A model generated the notes under the pieces. It was not told the origin of the DNA, did not search any database, and was given only the letters and a program-made list of their open reading frames with translations. 64,000 nt of DNA from Candidatus Gastranaerophilales bacterium (GTDB lineage Bacteria; Cyanobacteriota; Vampirovibrionia; Gastranaerophilales; Gastranaerophilaceae). Of the stretch, positions 1,817-62,155 are shown piece by piece (position 1 is the stretch's first letter; every line of letters begins with the position of its first letter). The position numbers and the translations under genes were made by a program. The stretch covers positions 1 through 64,000 of the forward strand of contig CALUQX010000007.1 in the NCBI GenBank assembly GCA_944323045.1, written 5' to 3'.

Positions 1817-1822
1817 ATTATA
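1817..1822 (-). promoter_or_regulatory. -10 box of the DtxR-family gene
   Basis: TATAAT ending 7 nt before the ATG at 1809, with no Shine-Dalgarno between. It overlaps the stop codon of the upstream glycosyltransferase gene. Confidence 0.45.
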
Positions 1823-2834
1823 CCTTGTATTCAACCAATATTTTATTTGTAATATCTTCTGCTGTGATTTTCAGACAGTCTAATGTTTTGCAGGTAGTCT
1901 GACGGTGTTCCCATAGACACGGTTTTATCGGGCAATTATCAGATGCTTTCACCGGTGTGACGAATTCTGCCTGCGGAATCAGTTTTTTATCATCAGTTGG
2001 TCCAAAAATAACAAAAGTTCTTGTCTTTAGCGCCACCGCAACATGTAATGGTGCAGAATCCGAACAGATAAACACTTCTGCCTTTGCAATAAGTTCTGCC
2101 AAATCATGCAGACTTTTGGTTTTGCCAAAACAGTCTTCATAATTATTTTCCTGCCCGTTTGCTTTTAGATATCGGCGAATTGTTTCAATACACTCCGTAT
2201 CATCAGGACCGCCGGCGAGAATTACGTGTTTTCCTTTTTCAATAAGCAGATTAGCAGTCTGCGCCCAGACATCGGCACTGATTGTTTTTATCATGCCTTT
2301 TTGAACACTCAATTTGCTAACCCCCGGATGTATTAAAACAGTATTAGGAGTTTTCTTTTGCGGCTGAACATTTATTTCGGGAAGAGGTGTTTTGTAACCA
2401 GTGACAGGCGTAACCAGTGCGTGATACATATCACAGGCATATTGATTTTTATTCAGCGGAACAGCTTTTGTTAGAAGTATGCGGCTTAATTTCCCTGTGT
2501 CATAACCGTAGCGTTCTTTTATTCCGGTAAGCGCAAGCAGCAGTGCTATCATTTTATTTCCGCCTGAGGAAATTACCATATCAAATTTTCCGCTGCGGGC
2601 TTTGAAAATCAATTTTAACAATTCAAAATACCTGTTTTTGCCTTTCACATCTATCAAAAACAAGTCATCAATGATATCTGTTAAATCTTTGACACTTTTA
2701 CTTCTAGGCTCCAGTGCCAGAGTTATCTTTGCGTCTGGAAATTCTTTTTTTAGTGATATTAATGCCGGCAGAAAGAAAATTTCATCGCCGATGCCGCCAA
2801 AGTTTATTGCAAGTATTTTTTTTATGTTTCGCAT
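1818..2834 (-). CDS. Glycosyltransferase family 9 (heptosyltransferase-like)
   Basis: 338 residues with two Rossmann domains of the GT-B/GT9 type. The N-terminus KKILAINFGGIGDEIFFLPA is the nucleotide-sugar GT9 start (usual form G.iGD.i...P). The C-terminal part has FICSDSAPLHVAVALKTRTF followed by FGPTDDKK, the donor-binding GT9 motif. The family adds heptose or related sugars to LPS core, which fits kdsA in this window. A longer frame starts at 2885 but would overlap the divergent comM start. ATG 2834 lies exactly 6 nt after a minus-strand TATAAT, so I chose it. The acceptor sugar is not known. Confidence 0.85.
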   Translation of the reverse strand: MRNIKKILAINFGGIGDEIFFLPALISLKKEFPDAKITLALEPRSKSVKDLTDIIDDLFLIDVKGKNRYFELLKLIFKARSGKFDMVISSGGNKMIALLLALTGIKERYGYDTGKLSRILLTKAVPLNKNQYACDMYHALVTPVTGYKTPLPEINVQPQKKTPNTVLIHPGVSKLSVQKGMIKTISADVWAQTANLLIEKGKHVILAGGPDDTECIETIRRYLKANGQENNYEDCFGKTKSLHDLAELIAKAEVFICSDSAPLHVAVALKTRTFVIFGPTDDKKLIPQAEFVTPVKASDNCPIKPCLWEHRQTTCKTLDCLKITAEDITNKILVEYKV

Positions 2835-2840
2835 ACAGAT

Positions 2841-2846
2841 ATTATA
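2841..2846 (-). promoter_or_regulatory. -10 box of the GT9 gene
   Basis: TATAAT on the minus strand ending 6 nt before ATG 2834, predicting a leaderless transcript. It sits back-to-back with the comM promoter. Confidence 0.5.
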
Positions 2847-2862
2847 ACCCAAAAATTTGTAG

Positions 2863-2868
2863 TATAAT
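2863..2868 (+). promoter_or_regulatory. -10 box of comM
   Basis: TATAAT ending 6 nt before ATG 2875, with no Shine-Dalgarno. The transcript is probably leaderless. Confidence 0.5.
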
Positions 2869-2874
2869 AACTTT

Positions 2875-4416
2875 ATGGTAAACAAAGTTACAACAGCAAC
2901 GGTAATCGGTTTAAACGCCTATAAAGTGGAAGTAGAAATAGATACAAACAATTCTCTGCCTGCGATTTCAATTGTGGGGCTGCCGGATGTTGCGGTTAAT
3001 GAGGCGCGTGATCGTGTGCGTTCTGCTGTAAAAAATTCCGGTTTTACATTTCCTCAGCGAAAAGTTATTGTTAACCTTGCGCCTGCTGATTTGAAAAAAG
3101 AGGGAACAAATTTTGACCTGCCGATAGCTGTTGGTATTCTTGTAGAAGAAGAGATTATTGATGAACAGGCGGTTAAGGATTATGCATTTATTGGTGAATT
3201 GTCGCTTGACGGAATGATTAGAGAGGTTAGCGGCGTGTTGTCGCTTGTTCTTGGATTAAAAGAAATGGGAGTGAAAAATGTTATTGTGCCTGAAAAAAAT
3301 GCAAAAGAAGCCGCACTTGTTGAAGGAATTAACGTCTATGGCGCAAAATATCTTCGCGATGTTGCCGAACATTTTTGTTCCAACCCGTTGACGCCTACAA
3401 TTGTGGATATAAACAACTATCTTAATGAAAACAGTCAGGAAGAATATTTATATGATTTTAAAGATGTTAAAGGTCAGCAGAAGGCTAAAAAAGCACTGGA
3501 AATTGCGGCAGCAGGCGGGCATAATATTTTAATGGTCGGCTCACCCGGTTCGGGTAAAACATTGATGGCAAAATGTTTCCCGTCAATTTTACCGCCGCTT
3601 GAACTTCAGGAAGCTCTTGAACTAACAAAAATTTATAGTGTAAGCGGGTTATTGCCTCCTGATGAACCTTTAATGACTAAACGCCCGTTTCGTCCTGTGC
3701 ACCATAAAGCATCTGCAAACGGAATTGTCGGCGGAGGAACCAATCCCAAACCCGGAGAAATTACGCTAGCGCACCGCGGAGTTTTGTTTCTTGATGAAAT
3801 GGTAGAATTTCCGAGAAATGTATTAGAAGTTTTGCGCCAGCCGCTTGAAGATGGCGAAGTAGTAATTACACGTTCCAAATTATCCGTGAAATATCCCGCA
3901 AAATTCATGCTACTCGGAGCAATGAATCCTTGTCCTTGCGGGTACCTCGGAGATAAAGAAAAACAGTGCACCTGTACTGAATTTCAGATAAACAGGTATT
4001 TATCAAAGCTGTCCGGTCCGCTGCTGGACAGAATTGATTTACAAATTGATGTTCCGCGTCTTACTTCTGAAGAACTGATTAATTCCAAAACACAGGAAGA
4101 ACCGTCTGCAGAAATTCGGAAACGTGTTGTTAAAGCCAGAAAAATTCAATATAATCGCTATAAAGATGAGGGGATTTTGACAAATTCCGAACTTACCCCG
4201 AAACTTGTAAAAAAATACTGCCAGCTTGATTCAAAATGCGAGGAACTTATGCGTGTTGCGGCTGTTAAATATCAGCTATCAGGACGCCGCTATGATAGAG
4301 TTTTGAAACTTGCGCGTACTATTGCTGATTTAAACGAATCCGAAATGATTACTGTTGTACATTTGACTCAAGCCTTGCAGTATAGAATGTTAAATATTCC
4401 AGCTATGGGAAATTAG
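2875..4416 (+). CDS. comM: ComM/YifB family Mg-chelatase-like AAA+ ATPase
   Basis: 513 residues, full length for the family. The N-terminal Lon-protease-like domain (1-165) carries SIVGLPDVAVNEARDRV. The AAA+ core has Walker A GSPGSGKT (222-229) and Walker B VLFLDEM (about 304-310). A cysteine cluster (NPCPCGYLGDKEKQC) follows, then the Mg-chelatase C-terminal domain with SGRRYDRVLKLARTIADL. ComM is a hexameric branch-migration helicase that helps integrate transforming DNA. With comF and the PilMN/PilO genes nearby, this supports natural competence. Monocistronic; the next gene is convergent. Confidence 0.93.
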   Translation: MVNKVTTATVIGLNAYKVEVEIDTNNSLPAISIVGLPDVAVNEARDRVRSAVKNSGFTFPQRKVIVNLAPADLKKEGTNFDLPIAVGILVEEEIIDEQAVKDYAFIGELSLDGMIREVSGVLSLVLGLKEMGVKNVIVPEKNAKEAALVEGINVYGAKYLRDVAEHFCSNPLTPTIVDINNYLNENSQEEYLYDFKDVKGQQKAKKALEIAAAGGHNILMVGSPGSGKTLMAKCFPSILPPLELQEALELTKIYSVSGLLPPDEPLMTKRPFRPVHHKASANGIVGGGTNPKPGEITLAHRGVLFLDEMVEFPRNVLEVLRQPLEDGEVVITRSKLSVKYPAKFMLLGAMNPCPCGYLGDKEKQCTCTEFQINRYLSKLSGPLLDRIDLQIDVPRLTSEELINSKTQEEPSAEIRKRVVKARKIQYNRYKDEGILTNSELTPKLVKKYCQLDSKCEELMRVAAVKYQLSGRRYDRVLKLARTIADLNESEMITVVHLTQALQYRMLNIPAMGN

Positions 4417-8270: not shown

Positions 8271-8276
8271 TATAAT
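8271..8276 (+). promoter_or_regulatory. Extended -10 of comF
   Basis: TGC-TATAAT ending 6 nt before ATG 8283, just after the stop of the upstream gene. The transcript is probably leaderless. Confidence 0.5.
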
Positions 8277-8282
8277 ATATTT

Positions 8283-8930
8283 ATGAAAGACTTTTTCTTA
8301 TCGCTTTTAGACTGGATTTATAAAAAGAAATGTTATTTTTGCAAGAGTTCGAAAGAATGCGTAAAAATGTGTTCAAATTGTTATGCAGAGCTTGAACATC
8401 TTCCGTTAACTCCGCAAAGAATTGTTGAAGGCAAAAAGGTATACTGTGCCGGAATTTACTCAAAAAATCTGCAAAAATTAATCCGTGGCTTAAAATATCA
8501 CAACCAAAGAGATTTAGCATATTATCTCGCAAAATTTATGTGCGAGTACTGGTCTGAAATTACAGATAACAGAATCTTTGAAGTCGTGCCTGTTCCGATT
8601 TATCCAAAGCGCGAAAAGCAGAGAAAATACAATCATATGACACTTGTTGCAGAAGAATTCTGTAAGTTAACCGGTTACACTATAAACACAAATCTGATAA
8701 CAAGAATAAAAAATACAAAACCGCAGTACAATCTTAAAAAGCATGAACGTGTTCAAAATCTAGCCGGTGCTTTTAAAGTTTGCAAAGAGAATTATCAAGG
8801 CAAAACATTGTTATTGCTCGATGATATTTGCACAACAGGTGCTACTTTTGAAGAAATGATAAAAGAATTGAAAAAATCCGGTATTCAGAATATAATATGT
8901 TTTGCGGCAACTACCCCGTTTGGTGAATAA
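8283..8930 (+). CDS. comF: ComF-family phosphoribosyltransferase-like protein
   Basis: 215 residues. The N-terminal zinc finger has CYFC and CSNC pairs (about residues 15-35), and a type I PRTase fold follows. Its PRPP-loop signature LLLLDDICTTGATFEEM lies near the C-terminus, and the ComF-typical RKYNHMTLVAEEF and TKPQYNLKKHERVQNLAGAF precede it. ComF helps single-stranded DNA entry in naturally competent bacteria. An upstream in-frame ATG (8193) would overlap the preceding gene by 71 nt. ATG 8283 follows the TATAAT by 6 nt and is preferred. Confidence 0.92.
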   Translation: MKDFFLSLLDWIYKKKCYFCKSSKECVKMCSNCYAELEHLPLTPQRIVEGKKVYCAGIYSKNLQKLIRGLKYHNQRDLAYYLAKFMCEYWSEITDNRIFEVVPVPIYPKREKQRKYNHMTLVAEEFCKLTGYTINTNLITRIKNTKPQYNLKKHERVQNLAGAFKVCKENYQGKTLLLLDDICTTGATFEEMIKELKKSGIQNIICFAATTPFGE

Positions 8931-15555: not shown

Positions 15556-15561
15556 TAATAT
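15556..15561 (+). promoter_or_regulatory. Extended -10 of the histidine kinase gene
   Basis: TGC-TAATAT ending 6 nt before ATG 15568, with no Shine-Dalgarno. Confidence 0.45.
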
Positions 15562-15567
15562 ATAGAC

Positions 15568-17229
15568 ATGAAGAAATTTGATTTTCTAAACCAATTTAGG
15601 GATGCTGTGTTTGTTGTAAATAACCACTTTGACGTTGTTTACAAAAACAATACTTTCAAAAAAATATTTAAAGATTTTTCAAGTCTGAAAAAGTTTTCGC
15701 ACGGCATGAATTTTGATATCTGTCCGCTTAACAGCGAAAATATTGCCACATATTCGCCTGTGTATCATGCCATAACATCTTCTGAAAATTTTTTCGCTTT
15801 TGTTTCGTTTACCTTTGATAATAATCAGAAAAAATATTACGATTTAACTGCAGTTAAAAAATCAAAATATACAATAATTTTTCTGACAGATGTGACTGCA
15901 TCTATTGAAAGTCAAAGCTTTCAGCGTCATAACAGTGAACTCAAAGAACAAAATAGAAATCTGGAAGAGGAAAACGAAGATTTATTAAAAATTAAACAAA
16001 AAGCACAGTCTCAAGCAATTAGAATTGCCTTGATTAATAAAGTTTCAAATATAATAAGAGAGTCCATGGATATCTCTACAATTCTTCAATCTGCATTGAA
16101 AGAACTGGCTATTATGTTCGGGGCATATCGCGCTTATTATGCAGCTTTCAGTCAGGACAGATTCTTTATGGAAGAGGTATACGGCGAAAAGGACGAATTA
16201 TCTGGTGAAAAGTCTTTTCAACTTGACGATTTGACATATGAGCGCGTGATGCGCAAAAAAATCTCTGTAAGTAATTGTCTGCGTGAATATGTAAATGCTG
16301 CTCCATTTAAACAGTCCGTCCAAAGAGTGATTGTGCCCGTTTATCATATGCAGAAATTAAAAGGAATTATTGTACTGCTTAGCCACCAGAAAAAAGAACT
16401 GAATGAAGAATTAGAGATTCTGGAAGCAATATCCGCGCAGCTTTCAAACGCTATTACAAGGGCTGAACTTTATAACAAAAATCTCCAAACAGTAAATGAA
16501 TTGAAAAACACTTTAAAAGAACTTAAAGAAACTCAAATTCAGTTAATTAATTCTGAAAAAATGGCGTCGCTCGGTCAGCTTGTAGCAGGTGTGGCACACG
16601 AAATAAATACCCCGACCGCCTCAATTAAATCAAACAACGCAATTGCCGCAAAGCTGCTTGTGCAGATAGAAGACGCTGAATTGCATGATATGCTTAAAGA
16701 GCTAAATGATATTGATCGCGAAGCTATTCAGAGAATAAGTAATATCGTAACCTCACTTAAAAAATTCGTCCGGCTTGATGAAGCAGAACTGCAAGAAGCA
16801 GACATAAATAAGGAATTGGATTTGACTCTGGATTTGATTAGACACGAGACTAAAAACCGGATTCAAATCGTAAAGAATTATGGTGAAATCCCCGTCATTA
16901 GATGCTTTCCAAACATGCTTAATCAGGTGTTTACTAACATTTTAATCAACGCATGCCAGGCGATTGAGGGAGAAGGAACAATTACAATAACAACTGAATA
17001 TAAGAATGACAAATTGATAGTAAAGATTAAAGATACGGGTAAAGGAATCCCCGCAAACCGTCTGGACAAGATATTTACAGCCGGATATACTACAAAAGGA
17101 GTAGGAGTTGGAACCGGATTGGGGTTAGCAATATGCACTAAGATAATAGAGAAGCATGGCGGTGAAATCAGCGTAAACAGTGAGGAAGGCAAGGGCAGCG
17201 AGTTTATTATTACTATCTTTGGTAAGTAG
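15568..17229 (+). CDS. Soluble sensor histidine kinase (PAS-like, coiled coil, GAF, HisKA, HATPase)
   Basis: 553 residues with no membrane helix, so a cytoplasmic sensor. It has an N-terminal PAS-like fold (1-110), a coiled coil (about 125-155), and a GAF-like domain (about 165-310). A second coiled coil leads to HisKA with the phospho-acceptor in VAGVAHEINTPTASI (His about 344). The ATPase has N box NILINACQAI, G1 DTGKGIP (about 489-495) and G2 GTGLGLAI. The H-box HEINTP resembles cyanobacterial and delta-proteobacterial kinases. No response regulator is adjacent, so it is an orphan. The signal is unknown. Confidence 0.92.
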   Translation: MKKFDFLNQFRDAVFVVNNHFDVVYKNNTFKKIFKDFSSLKKFSHGMNFDICPLNSENIATYSPVYHAITSSENFFAFVSFTFDNNQKKYYDLTAVKKSKYTIIFLTDVTASIESQSFQRHNSELKEQNRNLEEENEDLLKIKQKAQSQAIRIALINKVSNIIRESMDISTILQSALKELAIMFGAYRAYYAAFSQDRFFMEEVYGEKDELSGEKSFQLDDLTYERVMRKKISVSNCLREYVNAAPFKQSVQRVIVPVYHMQKLKGIIVLLSHQKKELNEELEILEAISAQLSNAITRAELYNKNLQTVNELKNTLKELKETQIQLINSEKMASLGQLVAGVAHEINTPTASIKSNNAIAAKLLVQIEDAELHDMLKELNDIDREAIQRISNIVTSLKKFVRLDEAELQEADINKELDLTLDLIRHETKNRIQIVKNYGEIPVIRCFPNMLNQVFTNILINACQAIEGEGTITITTEYKNDKLIVKIKDTGKGIPANRLDKIFTAGYTTKGVGVGTGLGLAICTKIIEKHGGEISVNSEEGKGSEFIITIFGK

Positions 17230-18578: not shown

Positions 18579-18584
18579 TATAAT
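18579..18584 (+). promoter_or_regulatory. Extended -10 of the TPR gene
   Basis: TGA-TATAAT followed by TCAGGT and ATG 18591. The same 15-nt TATAATTCAGGTATG arrangement is found before kdsA at 51739. Confidence 0.5.
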
Positions 18585-18590
18585 TCAGGT

Positions 18591-19517
18591 ATGAAAAAAT
18601 TATTACTCGCGAGCTTATTTTTATCAATAATATTTTTACCTTGCAGAGCCGATGAAGTTACTGAGGATTTTTTGGATATAGCGGCGGATTACTGCGTTCA
18701 GGGGAATTATGCCGAAGCGGTTAATTATGTAAATAAGGCAATTGCGCATGAACCTGATAATCCGGATCTGGTAACTATTAAAAATGGAATATATCGTATT
18801 CAAGATCCTACAGCACAATCGTATCTGACAGAAAATAATCCGCAGGTTAAAGCAGCAGAAGAATTTAGAAAAGCAGGTAATGAAGAAAAAGAAATGCAGG
18901 CTCTGTTAGCCGGTGCAGAAGCTAAAAATCCTTGGGCAACATATTATCTGGCAGAATTTTACCGTAAGAAAAAACAATTTAATACAGCATTAAATTATTA
19001 CGACAAAACGCTTGAATTGAAGCAGGGGTTTGCGCAGTGTTACCTCGGGATAACACTTACATTAATTGAGATGAATAATTACGAAGCTGCAATGAATGCC
19101 ATTGCATACTATCTGGACAGGTGCCCGAAATCAGATTTGGGATACGCTTTGCGCGCGGACATAAATTTGCATCTGAAAAATTACGTTGATGCTGAAGCGG
19201 ATATAATTACTGCCCTGTCTATATCCAATGATATTGATTATCAACTTCTGGAGGGAGAAATTCTGTATCACCGCGGAAGTTATAAAGCTGCTAAAGAAAA
19301 ATTAGAAAAATTAACCCAAACTGTCAAAACTGCTGAATTATACAAATACTTAGGGCTGTGTGACTATCAGTTAAAAGATTATAATAATGCTCTTCTAAAT
19401 TTGAATAATTCAATCATCCTATCTGATGACGACATAGAGGTTAAAAACAAATATAATGAAGTAAAAGATAAATTGACAAACGGAACACAAAATGACCAGA
19501 AAAAAATACAGGAATAA
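18591..19517 (+). CDS. Exported TPR-repeat protein
   Basis: 308 residues. It has a signal peptide (1-20, cut likely after PCRA), then tetratricopeptide repeats: NYAEAVNYVNKAIAHEPDNP, QFNTALNYYDKTLELKQGF, and further copies to the end. It is probably periplasmic and protein-binding. Its last 26 nt overlap the start of the phosphoesterase gene, so the two are likely co-translated. No specific function is recognised. Confidence 0.85.
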   Translation: MKKLLLASLFLSIIFLPCRADEVTEDFLDIAADYCVQGNYAEAVNYVNKAIAHEPDNPDLVTIKNGIYRIQDPTAQSYLTENNPQVKAAEEFRKAGNEEKEMQALLAGAEAKNPWATYYLAEFYRKKKQFNTALNYYDKTLELKQGFAQCYLGITLTLIEMNNYEAAMNAIAYYLDRCPKSDLGYALRADINLHLKNYVDAEADIITALSISNDIDYQLLEGEILYHRGSYKAAKEKLEKLTQTVKTAELYKYLGLCDYQLKDYNNALLNLNNSIILSDDDIEVKNKYNEVKDKLTNGTQNDQKKIQE

Positions 19518-24351: not shown

Positions 24352-24357
24352 TATAAT
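24352..24357 (+). promoter_or_regulatory. Extended -10 of rsmI
   Basis: TGG-TATAAT ending 6 nt before ATG 24364; probably leaderless. Confidence 0.5.
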
Positions 24358-24363
24358 GTATTT

Positions 24364-25188
24364 ATGAAAGAATATGATTTTTACATAGTACCAACACCTA
24401 TCGGAAACCTCGGTGATATCACACTGCGCGCTCTGGAGATACTTAAAAAAGTCGACATAATCGCTTGTGAAGATATGCGCGTCACCCAAAAACTCCTTAA
24501 TCATTTTGATATAAAAACAAAATGTATTTCATATCACAAGTTTAACGAAAAAGAACGTATCGAAAAGTTTCTAGAAATTCTTGCAGAAGGTAAAAAAATT
24601 GCACTGGTATCTGATGCTGGCACTCCTTTGTTTTGTGACCCCGGAGCTATTATTGTTGAAGAATTAAGAAAGCATGGATTCACTCTCACTTCTCTGCCCG
24701 GGGCAAATGCCGTTGTTACATTTCTTTCTCAAGTCGCACGCGACGGTGAAGATTTTATATTTGTTGGATTTTTGCCAAAAACTAAAGACAAAATTGAAAA
24801 TATTTTAATAAAATATAAAAATACAGATATTGTTTTTTATGATTCGCCAAACAGGATTCTGAATACTCTGGAAATTATTCAGTCATGCCGGAACACCCCA
24901 AAAGTCGCTGTTGCAAGAGAATTAACCAAAATTTTTGAAGAAATTGTCGTGGATTCATGCGAGAATACCATTAATCATTTTAAAAATAATATCGTTAAGG
25001 GTGAAATTGCCGCTCTCGTTTTTCGTGACAAAACTTCAAATTCCGAAATTAATTTAGATGAAAAAATCGCTGCTCTGAAAAAGAAGAATTTTAAGGCAAA
25101 AGAAATAGCAGCAATACTTTCAGCACTTTATAACCTTAATAAAAATGACGTGTATAAAAAAATTATTGAAGATTTATGTAAAAATTAA
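24364..25188 (+). CDS. rsmI: 16S rRNA (cytidine1402-2'-O)-methyltransferase
   Basis: 274 residues, full length. It carries the tetrapyrrole-methylase fold with YIVPTPIGNLGDITLRALE at the N-terminus, ACEDMRVTQKLL, then LVSDAGTPLFCDPG and SLPGANAVVTF. It methylates C1402 of 16S rRNA with SAM. A lysine-rich C-terminal domain completes it. It begins directly after the repeat cluster with its own promoter. Confidence 0.96.
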   Translation: MKEYDFYIVPTPIGNLGDITLRALEILKKVDIIACEDMRVTQKLLNHFDIKTKCISYHKFNEKERIEKFLEILAEGKKIALVSDAGTPLFCDPGAIIVEELRKHGFTLTSLPGANAVVTFLSQVARDGEDFIFVGFLPKTKDKIENILIKYKNTDIVFYDSPNRILNTLEIIQSCRNTPKVAVARELTKIFEEIVVDSCENTINHFKNNIVKGEIAALVFRDKTSNSEINLDEKIAALKKKNFKAKEIAAILSALYNLNKNDVYKKIIEDLCKN

Positions 25189-47580: not shown

Positions 47581-47591
47581 TCATTTATTAT
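47563..47591 (+). promoter_or_regulatory. Promoter of the divergent XRE gene
   Basis: TTGTTG, 17-nt spacer, TATTAT ending 6 nt before ATG 47598. It overlaps the prepilin C promoter, so one bound protein would block both. Confidence 0.5.
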
Positions 47592-47597
47592 TTAAAA

Positions 47598-47825
47598 ATG
47601 AATGACGAAGAATTTCTAAAAAAATTAGGACACAATATAAAAATCCTGCGTACACTGCGCGGTCTCTCGCAAGAAGATATTATGGGGGAATTGAATATTG
47701 ACAGGGCGTATTACAGCAGACTGGAATGCGGTAAGGCAAACTGTTCAATTCTTTATCTTAGAAAAATTGCTCAGGTTCTAAATGTTGATTTAGGTAAACT
47801 TTTAAACTTAAACATTGAGATTTAG
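47598..47825 (+). CDS. Small XRE-family HTH regulator
   Basis: 75 residues: FLKKLGHNIKILRTLRGLSQEDIM and the recognition helix DRAYYSRLECGKANCS. It is divergent from prepilin C. Chosen start ATG 47598; the frame from 47568 would run into the promoter. Its last 18 nt overlap the convergent folP 3' end. Confidence 0.87.
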   Translation: MNDEEFLKKLGHNIKILRTLRGLSQEDIMGELNIDRAYYSRLECGKANCSILYLRKIAQVLNVDLGKLLNLNIEI

Positions 47826-48944
47826 TAATTCTCTATGCAATTTTACATTATGCACTCTTATATAATCAACTTTTCGCTCAACGGCAAGTGTATTCAATGC
47901 AACCGTAAATATGTCCTTTGTCAAATTATCTTCATCCGGCATATTCAACAAACTTTTCCTTGAAACACCGAGCATTACCGGACAGTCAAGTCCGTATAAC
48001 TCCTCAATGCGGCGGATAATTTCAAAATTGTCTTCTCTTGTCTTACCAAATCCGATACCGGGATCTACTATAATATTTTCCGCATTCACGCCGGCTGCAA
48101 CAGCATATTCTATTCGTTTTCTCAGGTCAAGATAAATCTCATCCATTAAACAATCATAATGCGGCGCTATCTGCATGTTTTCAGGAGTTCCTTTTGTATG
48201 TTGAATTATCACTTTTACACCGCTTTGGGCTATGACTTCAGCCATTTTTTCATCATATTCAAGCCCTGAAACATCATTTATAATTTGAGTTCCGGCATTA
48301 ATACATTCCTGTGCAACCTTTGCCGAGCGCGTATCTATACTTATTGGTATTTCAATATTTTGCTCTTGTATAAATTCTAAAACAGGTAAAAGTTTTTCTA
48401 ACTGATTTTCTGCACTAACAGGATTTGAAAACGGCTTTGTCGATTCTGCACCGATGTCAATTATATCAGCCCCGTCATTAACCATTTCGGATAAATGTTC
48501 ACAGGCTTTATCTATATCAAAATACATTCCGCCGTCGGAAAATGAATTCTCTGTAATATTTAAAATCCCGACAATTTTTGTCCTGCTGATGTGTTGTCCG
48601 GTTGTAAAAGTTTTTATCTGTTCACCAAGATTTTTTAATCCAAAAGGCTGGCACTGTAATTTTTCAGCTATTTTAAATAGTTGGGAAATACTGCCGCCAA
48701 GTATACAGTCAGATTTTTCAACCCTGCCGGTAATTGTTTCTCTATGTGTTGCACAGTCTGCACCAACAGTCAGGGCGGTTTGTTTCAGGATGTTTGCCTG
48801 TGCCACAGATAAATTATATATTTTTATATTTTGATAACAGAATTTGTTACATGCGCGATGCACATAAGATTTGTCGAACCCTATATTTTCAAGTTCGGTC
48901 TGTATATCAGAATATACAATACTTTTCAAAATAAAATCGTGCAT
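47808..48944 (-). CDS. folP: Dihydropteroate synthase with N-terminal extension
   Basis: 378 residues. The TIM-barrel DHPS domain starts near residue 120 with VGILNITENSFSDGG, then ADIIDIGAESTKPFS, then NDVSGLEYDEKM, and ENIIVDPGIGFGKTREDN. It joins pABA to dihydropterin pyrophosphate. The first 115 residues form an extra domain not needed for DHPS, as in some clostridial-type FolP. A minus-strand TGC-TACATT ends 6 nt before the ATG. Confidence 0.92.
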   Translation of the reverse strand: MHDFILKSIVYSDIQTELENIGFDKSYVHRACNKFCYQNIKIYNLSVAQANILKQTALTVGADCATHRETITGRVEKSDCILGGSISQLFKIAEKLQCQPFGLKNLGEQIKTFTTGQHISRTKIVGILNITENSFSDGGMYFDIDKACEHLSEMVNDGADIIDIGAESTKPFSNPVSAENQLEKLLPVLEFIQEQNIEIPISIDTRSAKVAQECINAGTQIINDVSGLEYDEKMAEVIAQSGVKVIIQHTKGTPENMQIAPHYDCLMDEIYLDLRKRIEYAVAAGVNAENIIVDPGIGFGKTREDNFEIIRRIEELYGLDCPVMLGVSRKSLLNMPDEDNLTKDIFTVALNTLAVERKVDYIRVHNVKLHRELLNLNV

Positions 48945-48950
48945 ACAATA

Positions 48951-48956
48951 AATGTA
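48951..48956 (-). promoter_or_regulatory. Extended -10 of folP
   Basis: TGC-TACATT ending 6 nt before ATG 48944, without Shine-Dalgarno. Confidence 0.4.
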
Positions 48957-48994
48957 GCACGATTTAAGTATATAAACAAGTTAAATTATAAATA

Positions 48995-51629: not shown

Positions 51630-51738
51630 TTTATTCCCTCACTTGTTTTTCTATACATAATTAATATACCACAAACTTTTAACCGAAACAAGTGGATATC
51701 CAATGCTTTGTTAACTTGTATTTAAATTTGTTTTTTGT

Positions 51739-51744
51739 TATAAT
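51739..51744 (+). promoter_or_regulatory. Extended -10 of kdsA
   Basis: TGT-TATAAT, then TCAGGT and ATG 51751: the same arrangement as at 18579. Confidence 0.5.
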
Positions 51745-51750
51745 TCAGGT

Positions 51751-52575
51751 ATGGAAAATGTAAAAACTATCAAACTTAAAAATTTTGAAATAGGCGGGGA
51801 TAAATTAACGATTTTAGCCGGTCCATGCGCAATTGAGAGTATGGAAATTCTTGATGAAACTGCAAAGGGCTTAAAAGAAATAACTAACCGCCTCGGTATA
51901 AATTTTGTATTCAAATCGTCTTTTGACAAAGCTAATCGCTCCTCTATTAATTCATTCCGCGGACCGGGTATGGAAAAAGGGCTAGAGATGCTTTCTGAAA
52001 TTAAGTCCAAATACGATTTGCCGGTTGTAACTGATATTCATACGCCGGATCAGGCAGAACCGGTTGCGCAGGTTGCAGATATAATACAAATTCCTGCATT
52101 CTTGTGCCGTCAGACAGATTTGCTTGTGGCTGCAGCAAAAACAGGTAAAATTGTTAACATTAAAAAAGGTCAGTTTCTGGCACCTGAACAAATGGGAACT
52201 TTAATAAAAAAAGTAGAAGATTCAGGCAATGATAAAATTCTGGTAACTGACAGAGGGGTAACTTTTGGTTATAACAACCTTGTTGTCGATTTCCGCGCTG
52301 TTCCGATTATGCAGTCATTCGGCTATCCGGTAGTGTTTGATGCAACGCACAGTGTACAGCTTCCGGGGGCTGGCGGAACCTGTTCAGGCGGCGACAGAAA
52401 ATTTGTTCCGGTACTTGCTAAAGCGGCTATGGCGGCAGGGGCAAATGTCTTATTCTTTGAGATTCATCCTGAGCCTGATTCAGCAAAATGCGACGGACCA
52501 AACATGATACCATTAAATAAAGCAGAAGAATTGTTTAAGATCTGCAAAGATATATTTGAACTTGTGAGAGCTTAA
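51751..52575 (+). CDS. kdsA: KDO-8-phosphate synthase
   Basis: 274 residues, full length. Motifs: LAGPCAIESMEI, FKSSFDKANRSSINSFRGPG, VTDIHTPDQAEPV, DATHSVQLPGAGGTCSGGD and FFEIHPEPDSAKCDGPNMIP. It joins PEP and arabinose-5-phosphate to make KDO-8-P, the sugar of the LPS inner core, so the organism has an LPS-bearing outer membrane. Confidence 0.97.
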   Translation: MENVKTIKLKNFEIGGDKLTILAGPCAIESMEILDETAKGLKEITNRLGINFVFKSSFDKANRSSINSFRGPGMEKGLEMLSEIKSKYDLPVVTDIHTPDQAEPVAQVADIIQIPAFLCRQTDLLVAAAKTGKIVNIKKGQFLAPEQMGTLIKKVEDSGNDKILVTDRGVTFGYNNLVVDFRAVPIMQSFGYPVVFDATHSVQLPGAGGTCSGGDRKFVPVLAKAAMAAGANVLFFEIHPEPDSAKCDGPNMIPLNKAEELFKICKDIFELVRA

Positions 52576-55415: not shown

Positions 55416-55421
55416 TATAAT
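55416..55421 (+). promoter_or_regulatory. Extended -10 of mazG
   Basis: TGG-TATAAT ending 6 nt before ATG 55428. Confidence 0.5.
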
Positions 55422-55427
55422 AATATT

Positions 55428-56192
55428 ATGGGATATGAAAATTTAGAGAAATTAATTGAAGTAGTAAAGAAACTGCGTTCGCCTGAAGGGTGCCAGTGGG
55501 ATAGAGCACAGACACACAAATCTTTGAAACCGAACATGCTTGAAGAGGCTTATGAGGCAGTTGATGCCATGGACAGCGGCGATATGAAACATTTGAAAGA
55601 AGAATTGGGTGATGTGCTTTTGCAGGTGGTGCTGCATGCACAGATTGCGGCGGATGAAAACGAATTTACAATTGAAGACGTGGCAAAGGGCTTGACTGAT
55701 AAACTTATTCACCGTCATCCGCATGTTTTCGGCAATACAAAAGTTAGTTCAACTCAAGATATTATAGATAATTGGGACAAACTTAAGCAGGAAGAGAAAA
55801 CTCACCGCAAATCGGCAATGGACGGTATTTCAAAATCTCAATCAGCATTGATGAGTGCTCAAAAAATCAGCAAAAAAGCTGTAAAATGCGGATTTGAATG
55901 GCCGGATGAAGATTCTTTATATGAATGCATAAATTCTGAATTTGAAGAATTTAAGGCTGCTGAAAATACCCAAAACCGTGAAAATATGGAAGAAGAGTTC
56001 GGTGATATTTTGTTTGCTGTGGTAAATCTTGCCAGGTGGAACAAAATTGATGCTGAACAGGCACTTTTAAAAGCAAACAAAAAATTCATGGCGCGTTTTC
56101 GTAAAATGGAAGAGCTTGCAGTAAAACCACTGAATGAATATTCTTTTGAAGAATATGATGCACTCTGGAAACAGGCGAAAGCCGCTGTGTAA
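55428..56192 (+). CDS. mazG: Nucleoside triphosphate pyrophosphohydrolase MazG
   Basis: 254 residues with two tandem MazG domains. N-terminal one has KLRSPEGCQWDRAQTHKSL, LEEAYEAVDAMD and EELGDVLLQVVLHAQIA. C-terminal one has EFEEFKAAENTQN and EEEFGDILFAVVNLARW. It hydrolyses NTPs to NMPs and pyrophosphate, clearing non-canonical nucleotides. Single gene with its own promoter. Confidence 0.95.
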   Translation: MGYENLEKLIEVVKKLRSPEGCQWDRAQTHKSLKPNMLEEAYEAVDAMDSGDMKHLKEELGDVLLQVVLHAQIAADENEFTIEDVAKGLTDKLIHRHPHVFGNTKVSSTQDIIDNWDKLKQEEKTHRKSAMDGISKSQSALMSAQKISKKAVKCGFEWPDEDSLYECINSEFEEFKAAENTQNRENMEEEFGDILFAVVNLARWNKIDAEQALLKANKKFMARFRKMEELAVKPLNEYSFEEYDALWKQAKAAV

Positions 56193-61500: not shown

Positions 61501-62143
61501 CGCCGCCTTTACCGTGAGATAACAGGTTGATGTTAAATCCTGAATCAATATTATACGGATCATCCTCAACAGAACGTTTCAAAAGAAACATATTGCATCG
61601 TACGGTTGCGTTTTTCTTCTTTGTAAGGCGCGCATTTGTTTTGGATATAAGATTCAATATCTCAACAGCGGCTGTAATTGCATTGTTAGCGGAACTTCCT
61701 ATTGTGTAATCCTTATCAAAACGGATTACATATGTGCTCCCGATTAATTGACGTCTCAAGCCTACTGATTTTGCGTAATCATAAATAATTTTATCCAGAT
61801 TAATTTTGAATTTATTAACGAGTTTTGCCGAACCCAGTAGAGTCCGCATGTCAGCCATATTTGGAAAGTCAATCGTCAGAATAACAAAATTGTCAGTGTT
61901 TGATTCATTCAGAATGACACTTTTTTCCAGAGAGAATCCGCAGTTTGCGCATTTCTTTTTAGCGGTTTGATTAACTTTTCCGCATTTGTTGCATTTGGTC
62001 ACAATGACATACCCGCATTTTTTGCAGGTACTTCCTTCGTTTACAGCCTTACAAACAGGGCATACGAGTTTAAGTACCTTTTTACAATTCGGGCAAACTA
62101 ATGCTTTATCATCAATTTCTAAACCACATTTTGGACATTCCAT
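58577..62143 (-). CDS. Large zinc-ribbon, cyclase-like, P-loop-remnant, TPR protein
   Basis: 1188 residues. Three N-terminal zinc ribbons (CxxC at 3, 17, 28, 40, 51, 65). Then residues about 75-265 resemble a class III nucleotide-cyclase fold (FVILTIDFPNMADMRTLLGS, NIDSGFNINLLSHGKGG) but without the expected metal aspartates that I can place with confidence. Residues about 300-660 look like a STAND/AAA core: NSLIFIENFEKID suggests Walker B, but no G-x-x-x-x-G-K-T Walker A was found. From about 700 helical TPR-like repeats follow, and an Asp/Glu/Gly-rich tail ends it. The order matches cyclase-ATPase-TPR proteins such as soluble adenylyl cyclase. I call it a probable degenerate, scaffold-type member. 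Confidence 0.78.
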   Translation of the reverse strand: MECPKCGLEIDDKALVCPNCKKVLKLVCPVCKAVNEGSTCKKCGYVIVTKCNKCGKVNQTAKKKCANCGFSLEKSVILNESNTDNFVILTIDFPNMADMRTLLGSAKLVNKFKINLDKIIYDYAKSVGLRRQLIGSTYVIRFDKDYTIGSSANNAITAAVEILNLISKTNARLTKKKNATVRCNMFLLKRSVEDDPYNIDSGFNINLLSHGKGGAEEKVLSAFQVLSDSEVQDILSKDYEFAPLNSVMINGEMKMFYEVNVKDLITVEQIPDEENEKVEIPNFVQNMLIEQDKIDGMALRKMDTPYDPDAIYDIETIKFSEIQADFVRTENIDVFYHVINRLQSVPKGILAIKTMELYKPYSLKIINTIDDLNLYSNIISVTCYDEMKYSPYSFFRELVSAIFSYTVSQKLFSQNDFSMFASVDPDSMVKDLITFTKRNTTNAEDTRYVYFDIFLTLLKAIPNSLIFIENFEKIDASSYDVLKHLFAAFDQLDISYLISYESSFSLHRDCYFLLEQPYYTEMALKPTPFEKMIEENKEYYKNILNDFYFHRIAKYSCGSILFLDFALQYLMESGVYRATEDSIELDTAKTIIIPSSLPKLLKRRLNLLEDEPDTLKFLASILLLGTRIDTATIDSLGFENIDEIIEKLGSMGYIYQYNNCIYFPNYNLLRQNLLESVKPELIKEVANELFEKVFIDEMPSPTKAYLYNLLEDYDKEFAEWEKLADIDLSMGDFSAYLNCANKIIDMMETKINEDNFENIENYKMELYDKISNNLYQYIPSKTSDIAQITLDNLERSDAETGKIIELCNKMILGSLDVGNYHKALELMHKVLSLLPNTSLDPNASNFNNYFFLMSFIHIEILFNIGALKDCLDVGYKVMSVVKEANLDKLRPPEYTPEQFRNMLIGSVGFVALANVLNFSGNVQEFLDMIGADLQGIPESYKIFPLLEQLLHGQLTELPEMEIAPNDRFATAIYHIMSAFMYLRPDPVKFAEEIYIAKLTAKDNNLHQIELFCDVLIGSSYMDMESYTKAVNIFYRIISETSENGMTNILYFAWYLLSEYNLRMKKYDVTYGIVNNAIIQLEKSDYANEYLILLFKYNMFKVLMFMKQYDSAKLCIEQAVNMAQKKGINIEFDLDPAHYEAEDMEESSEGTEGTEGAEGASGENAFAEGSIQDLDQLQPNNENSPAQKP

Positions 62144-62149
62144 AATGAA

Positions 62150-62155
62150 ATTATA
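62150..62155 (-). promoter_or_regulatory. Extended -10 of the 1188-residue gene
   Basis: Minus strand TGA-TATAAT ending 6 nt before ATG 62143. Confidence 0.5.

Follow-up and report, generated by a model that had tools for sequence, protein, structure and literature searches.

In the genome analysed here, that of a gut bacterium from a non-photosynthetic lineage related to cyanobacteria, about 10 % of the genes are very probably transcribed from sigma70-type promoters that give rise to leaderless mRNAs, the remainder being led by Shine-Dalgarno (SD) sequences. According to the proposed mechanism, a sigma70-type promoter, often with an extended -10 (TGnTATAAT), would be set so that the A of the start codon becomes +1. 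RNA polymerase would initiate at this A, following T at -1, to give a leaderless mRNA opening with AUG, and the ribosome would initiate on the 5'-terminal AUG with no SD interaction, while the remaining genes stay SD-led.

Probable promoters adjoining start codons in the window

The stretch of DNA analysed (the window) comprises bases 1-64000 of contig 7 in a 1.98-Mb genome and has a GC content of 37 %. The nearest matches of its kdsA are labelled Candidatus Gastranaerophilales or Melainabacteria, and the nearest relatives of the genome are Gastranaerophilales. The original prediction had placed a hexamer of the form TAnnnT exactly 6 nt before the ATG of 11 genes and 7 nt before that of a DtxR-type regulator, and every one of these 12 positions was confirmed in the sequence. 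The hexamers also read as claimed: TATAAT in nine cases (GT9, comM, comF, TPR, rsmI, kdsA, mazG, the 1188-residue gene and DtxR) and the variants TAATAT, TACATT and TATTAT at the kinase, folP and XRE genes, respectively. The TGn extension was found at eight genes, the number that had been reported (comF, kinase, TPR, rsmI, folP, kdsA, mazG and the 1188-residue gene). The features are as follows.

1817..1822, minus strand: -10-like TATAAT of the DtxR-type regulator, 7 nt upstream of the ATG at 1809; doubtful case
2832..2834, minus strand: start codon of GT9, predicted mRNA +1
2841..2846, minus strand: -10 TATAAT of GT9 (glycosyltransferase 9), 6 nt upstream of the ATG at 2834
2863..2868, plus strand: -10 TATAAT of comM, 6 nt upstream of the ATG at 2875
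2875..2877, plus strand: start codon of comM, predicted +1
8271..8276, plus strand: -10 of comF, TGc TATAAT, ATG at 8283
15556..15561, plus strand: -10 of the GAF histidine kinase gene, TGc TAATAT, ATG at 15568
18579..18584, plus strand: -10 of the TPR protein gene, TGa TATAAT, ATG at 18591
24352..24357, plus strand: -10 of rsmI, TGg TATAAT, ATG at 24364
47586..47591, plus strand: -10-like TATTAT of the XRE-type HTH gene, ATG at 47598; weakest among the spacing-6 sites
48951..48956, minus strand: -10 of folP, TGc TACATT, ATG at 48944
51716..51721, plus strand: -35 TTGTAT of kdsA, 17 bp upstream of the -10
51739..51744, plus strand: -10 of kdsA, TGt TATAAT, ATG at 51751
55416..55421, plus strand: -10 of mazG, TGg TATAAT, ATG at 55428
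62150..62155, minus strand: -10 of the 1188-residue zinc-ribbon gene, TGa TATAAT, ATG at 62143

The DtxR site is a weak case: the -10 and the GT9 stop codon overlap, the gene starts only 8 nt after GT9, and there is an AAGG 13 nt upstream. Among the relatives' loci examined, none contained an ortholog with a similar start. Pfam matches agreed with the gene names (iron-dependent repressor, glycosyltransferase 9, Mg-chelatase/ComM type, phosphoribosyltransferase, TPR, TP methylase, HTH, pterin-binding enzyme, DAHP-synthase family for KdsA, and MazG); the kinase carries a histidine kinase domain and a weak GAF match, and the 1188-residue protein a double zinc ribbon.

Spacing, initiator base and Shine-Dalgarno sites across the genome

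The spacing was evaluated in a 460-kb sample made up of the window and 396 kb of further stretches of the same genome. TATAAT-N6-ATG occurred 45 times, against about 15 (range 8-23) for each of the remaining spacings between 0 and 25 nt. No peak at spacing 6 was seen for GTG, TTG or CTG in this sample, the signal being confined to ATG. Simulated first-order Markov DNA contained 12.5±3.6 copies of TATAAT-N6-ATG, and the extended form TGnTATAAT-N6-ATG was observed 15 times versus 0.45 in such DNA. In the whole genome TATAAT preceded ATG 135 times at N6 versus 45 times at N9. The 6-nt enrichment, on which the original prediction had been staked, is present. Chance matches in an AT-rich genome would account for some sites, since at 37 % GC about 12-15 of the 45 are expected by chance, but such matches would not peak at spacing 6 only and before ATG only, exceed Markov DNA, reach 135 versus 45 in the whole genome or be conserved in orthologs. 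The probability that chance explains the signal is negligible, and for the set as a whole this explanation was ruled out by the spacing and Markov controls.

A simple purpose-made method of start and gene calling gave 356 ATG genes in the 460-kb sample, 36 of which had a strong -10 at spacing 6; spacings 3-5 and 7-11 gave 0-5 each. As estimated from these neighbouring spacings, about 2-3 of the 36 are chance sites, and the spacing-6 excess amounts to ~33 genes, or 9 % of the 356. Roughly 10 % of the genes thus appear to be of the leaderless type, and most of them would be first in their transcription units. Operon membership was deduced from intergenic gaps alone. By this measure none of the 90 starts lying up to 20 nt from a codirectional upstream gene was leaderless-type, and 16 of the 118 divergent starts were.

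The claim that the spacing-6 genes lack SD sites held: of 34 strong cases whose gene position was classified, 0 contained the simple motif used for scoring. Its counterpart, that operon-internal genes have strong SD sites, held in part: the motif was detected in 52 of the 90 tight positions and not in the rest. In total, 171 SD-led ATG genes were scored in the 460-kb sample. In these genes most strong -10 boxes are found 15-35 nt upstream. When all genes are considered, few boxes occur at spacings 7-11, so the genome contains two layouts separated by a gap. A 16S rRNA gene was absent from the window genome when it was searched. The 16S rRNA 3' end of two relatives carries an intact anti-SD, GGATCACCTCCTTT, and therefore SD initiation should coexist with leaderless initiation.

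The two layouts also differ in the base preceding the start codon. T was found at -1 in 33 of the 36 leaderless-type starts (92 %) versus 85 of the 171 SD starts (50 %; p about 1e-6). The usual initiator consists of a pyrimidine at -1 and a purine at +1 (the YR rule, PMC4782308), and the T-1 bias matches it if the A of ATG is +1. A replicate on 1.16 Mb from 80 species, the count of which contains the kdsA sites themselves, gave 136 TATAAT-N6-ATG versus 21-71 at other spacings, with T at -1 in 107 of the 136 N6 sites.

Conservation of the orthologous starts

The most complete promoter was that of kdsA. Across 80 species the ATG aligned near the protein start, TAnnnT lay exactly at -12 to -7 in 74/80, TTG at -35 to -33 with a 17-bp spacer in 68/80, and T at -1 in 80/80; at -6 to -2 the bases are poorly conserved and only their number is fixed. 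When the A of the kdsA ATG is counted as +1, the -35, the spacer, the -10 and T-1 all fall at textbook positions. Over all leaderless-type genes the -35 signal is weak, unlike the clear one at kdsA. The exceptional kdsA species show spacing 7 (L103, L107 and L121), spacing 9 (L124), or a -10 moved 19-24 nt upstream (L067 and L052). In the last two a leader with AGGAG (L067, between the -10 and ATG) or GAAGG (L052) is found, and these orthologs are likely natural switches from the leaderless to the SD-led layout.

Of 21 orthologous starts in five congeners, 19 kept spacing 6 and the other two had spacing 7. The GT9 site was kept at spacing 6 in all five and in G003. For comM and mazG four congeners had spacing 6 and one had spacing 7 (G224 and G285, respectively), and in G003 mazG has an SD leader instead. 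Despite divergent flanking sequences at the comF, kinase and TPR genes in the congeners, spacing 6 was retained, each of the G136 orthologs being at spacing 6. Spacing 6 was also found for rsmI in G224; the -10 of the 1188-residue gene is identical in G136, and the TATTAT site of the XRE gene is retained in L051.

Among wider relatives spacing 6 was found for comM in 16/26 (an SD-like motif instead in 5), for mazG in 12/27 (SD-like in 8) and for GT9 in 8/16 (SD-like in 1), and for folP TAnnnT stood at spacing 6 in 17/19; these ortholog counts, like those for kdsA and the congeners, are not independent because the relatives share ancestry. Since orthologs differ in having the spacing-6 or the SD layout, genes seem to move between the leaderless and SD layouts.

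These alignments bear on the possibility that the starts were mis-called, i.e. that the box drives a leadered mRNA on which a later ATG, with an SD, serves as the start. Such an error could concern single poorly conserved genes, and no result favours it in general. Across species the called ATG keeps a fixed distance from the -10 and T-1, an ATG is found close to the protein start in the kdsA alignment of 80 species, and the orthologous starts of the congeners coincide at residue 1. As a general explanation mis-calling is highly improbable and was rejected in view of the conservation locked to the ATG.

A closer alternative is that some of these promoters produce very short leaders, with transcription starting 1-3 nt before the ATG, or with slippage yielding a mixture, so that the mRNAs would be nearly leaderless. 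Promoters commonly permit starts 6-8 nt past the -10, and the orthologs with spacing 7 (the three of kdsA, one of comM and one of mazG) would fit this reading. On the other hand, the peak is exactly at 6 with little excess at 7, and the T fixed at -1 beside A favours the A of the ATG as +1. Very short leaders are considered improbable, and truly leaderless mRNAs are the preferred reading. From the architecture, spacing, statistics, conservation and spread of the sites we infer that both transcription and translation start at the AUG. The exact spacing, the extended -10 and T-1 all support the mRNAs beginning at AUG that had been proposed for these genes, as do the absence of SD sites, the confinement of the signal to ATG, the location at first genes and the kdsA promoter conserved over 80 species.

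Distribution among lineages and relation to known systems

The distribution of the layout was assessed by counting exact TATAAT at N6 versus N9 in the same genomes, group sums being added by hand; counts so restricted would not register more degenerate forms of the signal. Six genomes of the window's genus gave N6/N9 of 850/280. By family the values were 65/40 (f2), 309/202 (f3), 213/95 (f6), 24/6 (f10), 36/10 (f14) and 20/19 (f4), and in the photosynthetic families f12 and f29, with ten genomes each, 456/453 and 188/162. Within the order, 187/91 was obtained for f2 (pooled with its earlier 65/40 set), 178/103 for f44, 609/462 for f41, 168/155 for f40 and 152/149 for f42. N6 was not enriched in G304, G309, G306 and G311, which belong to f40 and f42 of the same order, though sister families were enriched. 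The signal runs through the whole family; in the rest of the order it is weaker or missing, and within this one order the layout seems to differ in strength or to have been lost.

Photosystem reaction-centre genes (PF00124) were present in the tested f12, f29, f5 and f22 genomes, and none were found in the tested genomes of f2, f3, f4, f6, f10, f13, f14, f17 and f45. For families f6, f10 and f14, which lie outside the class and are PF00124-negative, the counts suggest N6 enrichment. The signal thus occurs in several, not all, non-photosynthetic lineages and is absent from the summed photosynthetic cyanobacteria. Tentatively, a leaderless class may have been stably inherited in several non-photosynthetic cyanobacterial relatives and lost or never gained in the photosynthetic class, although we would put this somewhat below an even chance. 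If true, the phylum would provide a natural experiment on how genes shift between leaderless and SD-led initiation, and also on the control of leaderless mRNAs in a gut lineage.

Comparable layouts are known from other bacteria. In Deinococcus radiodurans a -10 near the ORF was shown by experiment to be a promoter of leaderless mRNA with a spacing requirement (PMC12340547), and the TANNNT or '-10-motif' genes of Deinococcus-Thermus resemble those described here in having the -10 a few bp before the ORF and SD genes in the same genome (PMC12340547; PMC3160421). About 30-40 % of Deinococcus-Thermus genes are of the leaderless type versus about 10 % here, where the box is nearer to full TATAAT, often has TGn and, at kdsA, is accompanied by a conserved -35. 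In Actinobacteria, a distant high-GC lineage, leaderless genes also use GTG starts, whereas the signal here is at ATG only. Mycobacterium and other Actinobacteria likewise have transcripts that begin at the start codon, preceded by a TANNNT -10 (PMC3898074, PMC4633059). A survey of 953 bacterial genomes (Zheng 2011, PMC3160421) described a TA-led signal ~12 bp upstream, counted from the first T, in many groups, which is the same signal as here, and stated for many Cyanobacteria that they initiate neither from SD sites nor on leaderless mRNAs. The leaderless fraction estimated here resembles the 10-15 % of starts found by Cappable-seq in two other gut bacteria (PMC4782308).

The mechanism is already known, and the lineage is new to the leaderless class as far as could be found, no report linking leaderless mRNAs with Melainabacteria or Gastranaerophilales having been found in the open-licence literature. 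If the interpretation is correct, a largely uncultured gut lineage joins those with a substantial leaderless gene class, and the sequence by itself predicts where transcription begins in roughly one gene in ten. This would help to correct the start codons and promoters annotated in metagenome-assembled genomes of the lineage, and the kdsA, mazG and comM orthologs would represent natural leaderless/SD-led switches.

The divergent GT9/comM pair and the folP repeat

At 2832-2877 of the window, GT9 and comM have divergent leaderless-type promoters with 40 bp separating the start codons, and this arrangement is retained in the five congeners. The -10 of each overlaps the expected -35 region of the opposite promoter, so simultaneous occupancy of both would hardly be possible, and the two may form a mutually exclusive promoter pair.

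At the folP start (48936-48963, minus strand) a perfect inverted repeat, ATCGTGC-N14-GCACGAT, surrounds the -10 and the start codon. The pattern is present in a single copy in the genome. The arms AAATCGTGC/GCACGAT were found in 16 of 19 relatives, codons 2-3 (His-Asp) being thereby fixed, and in the three relatives without the left arm the -10 is still at spacing 6. If the folP mRNA is leaderless, the left arm is untranscribed, and the repeat is then more likely a DNA operator than an RNA hairpin. At their other ends, folP and the XRE-type HTH gene are convergent, and their 3' ends share 18 bp (window 47808-47825).
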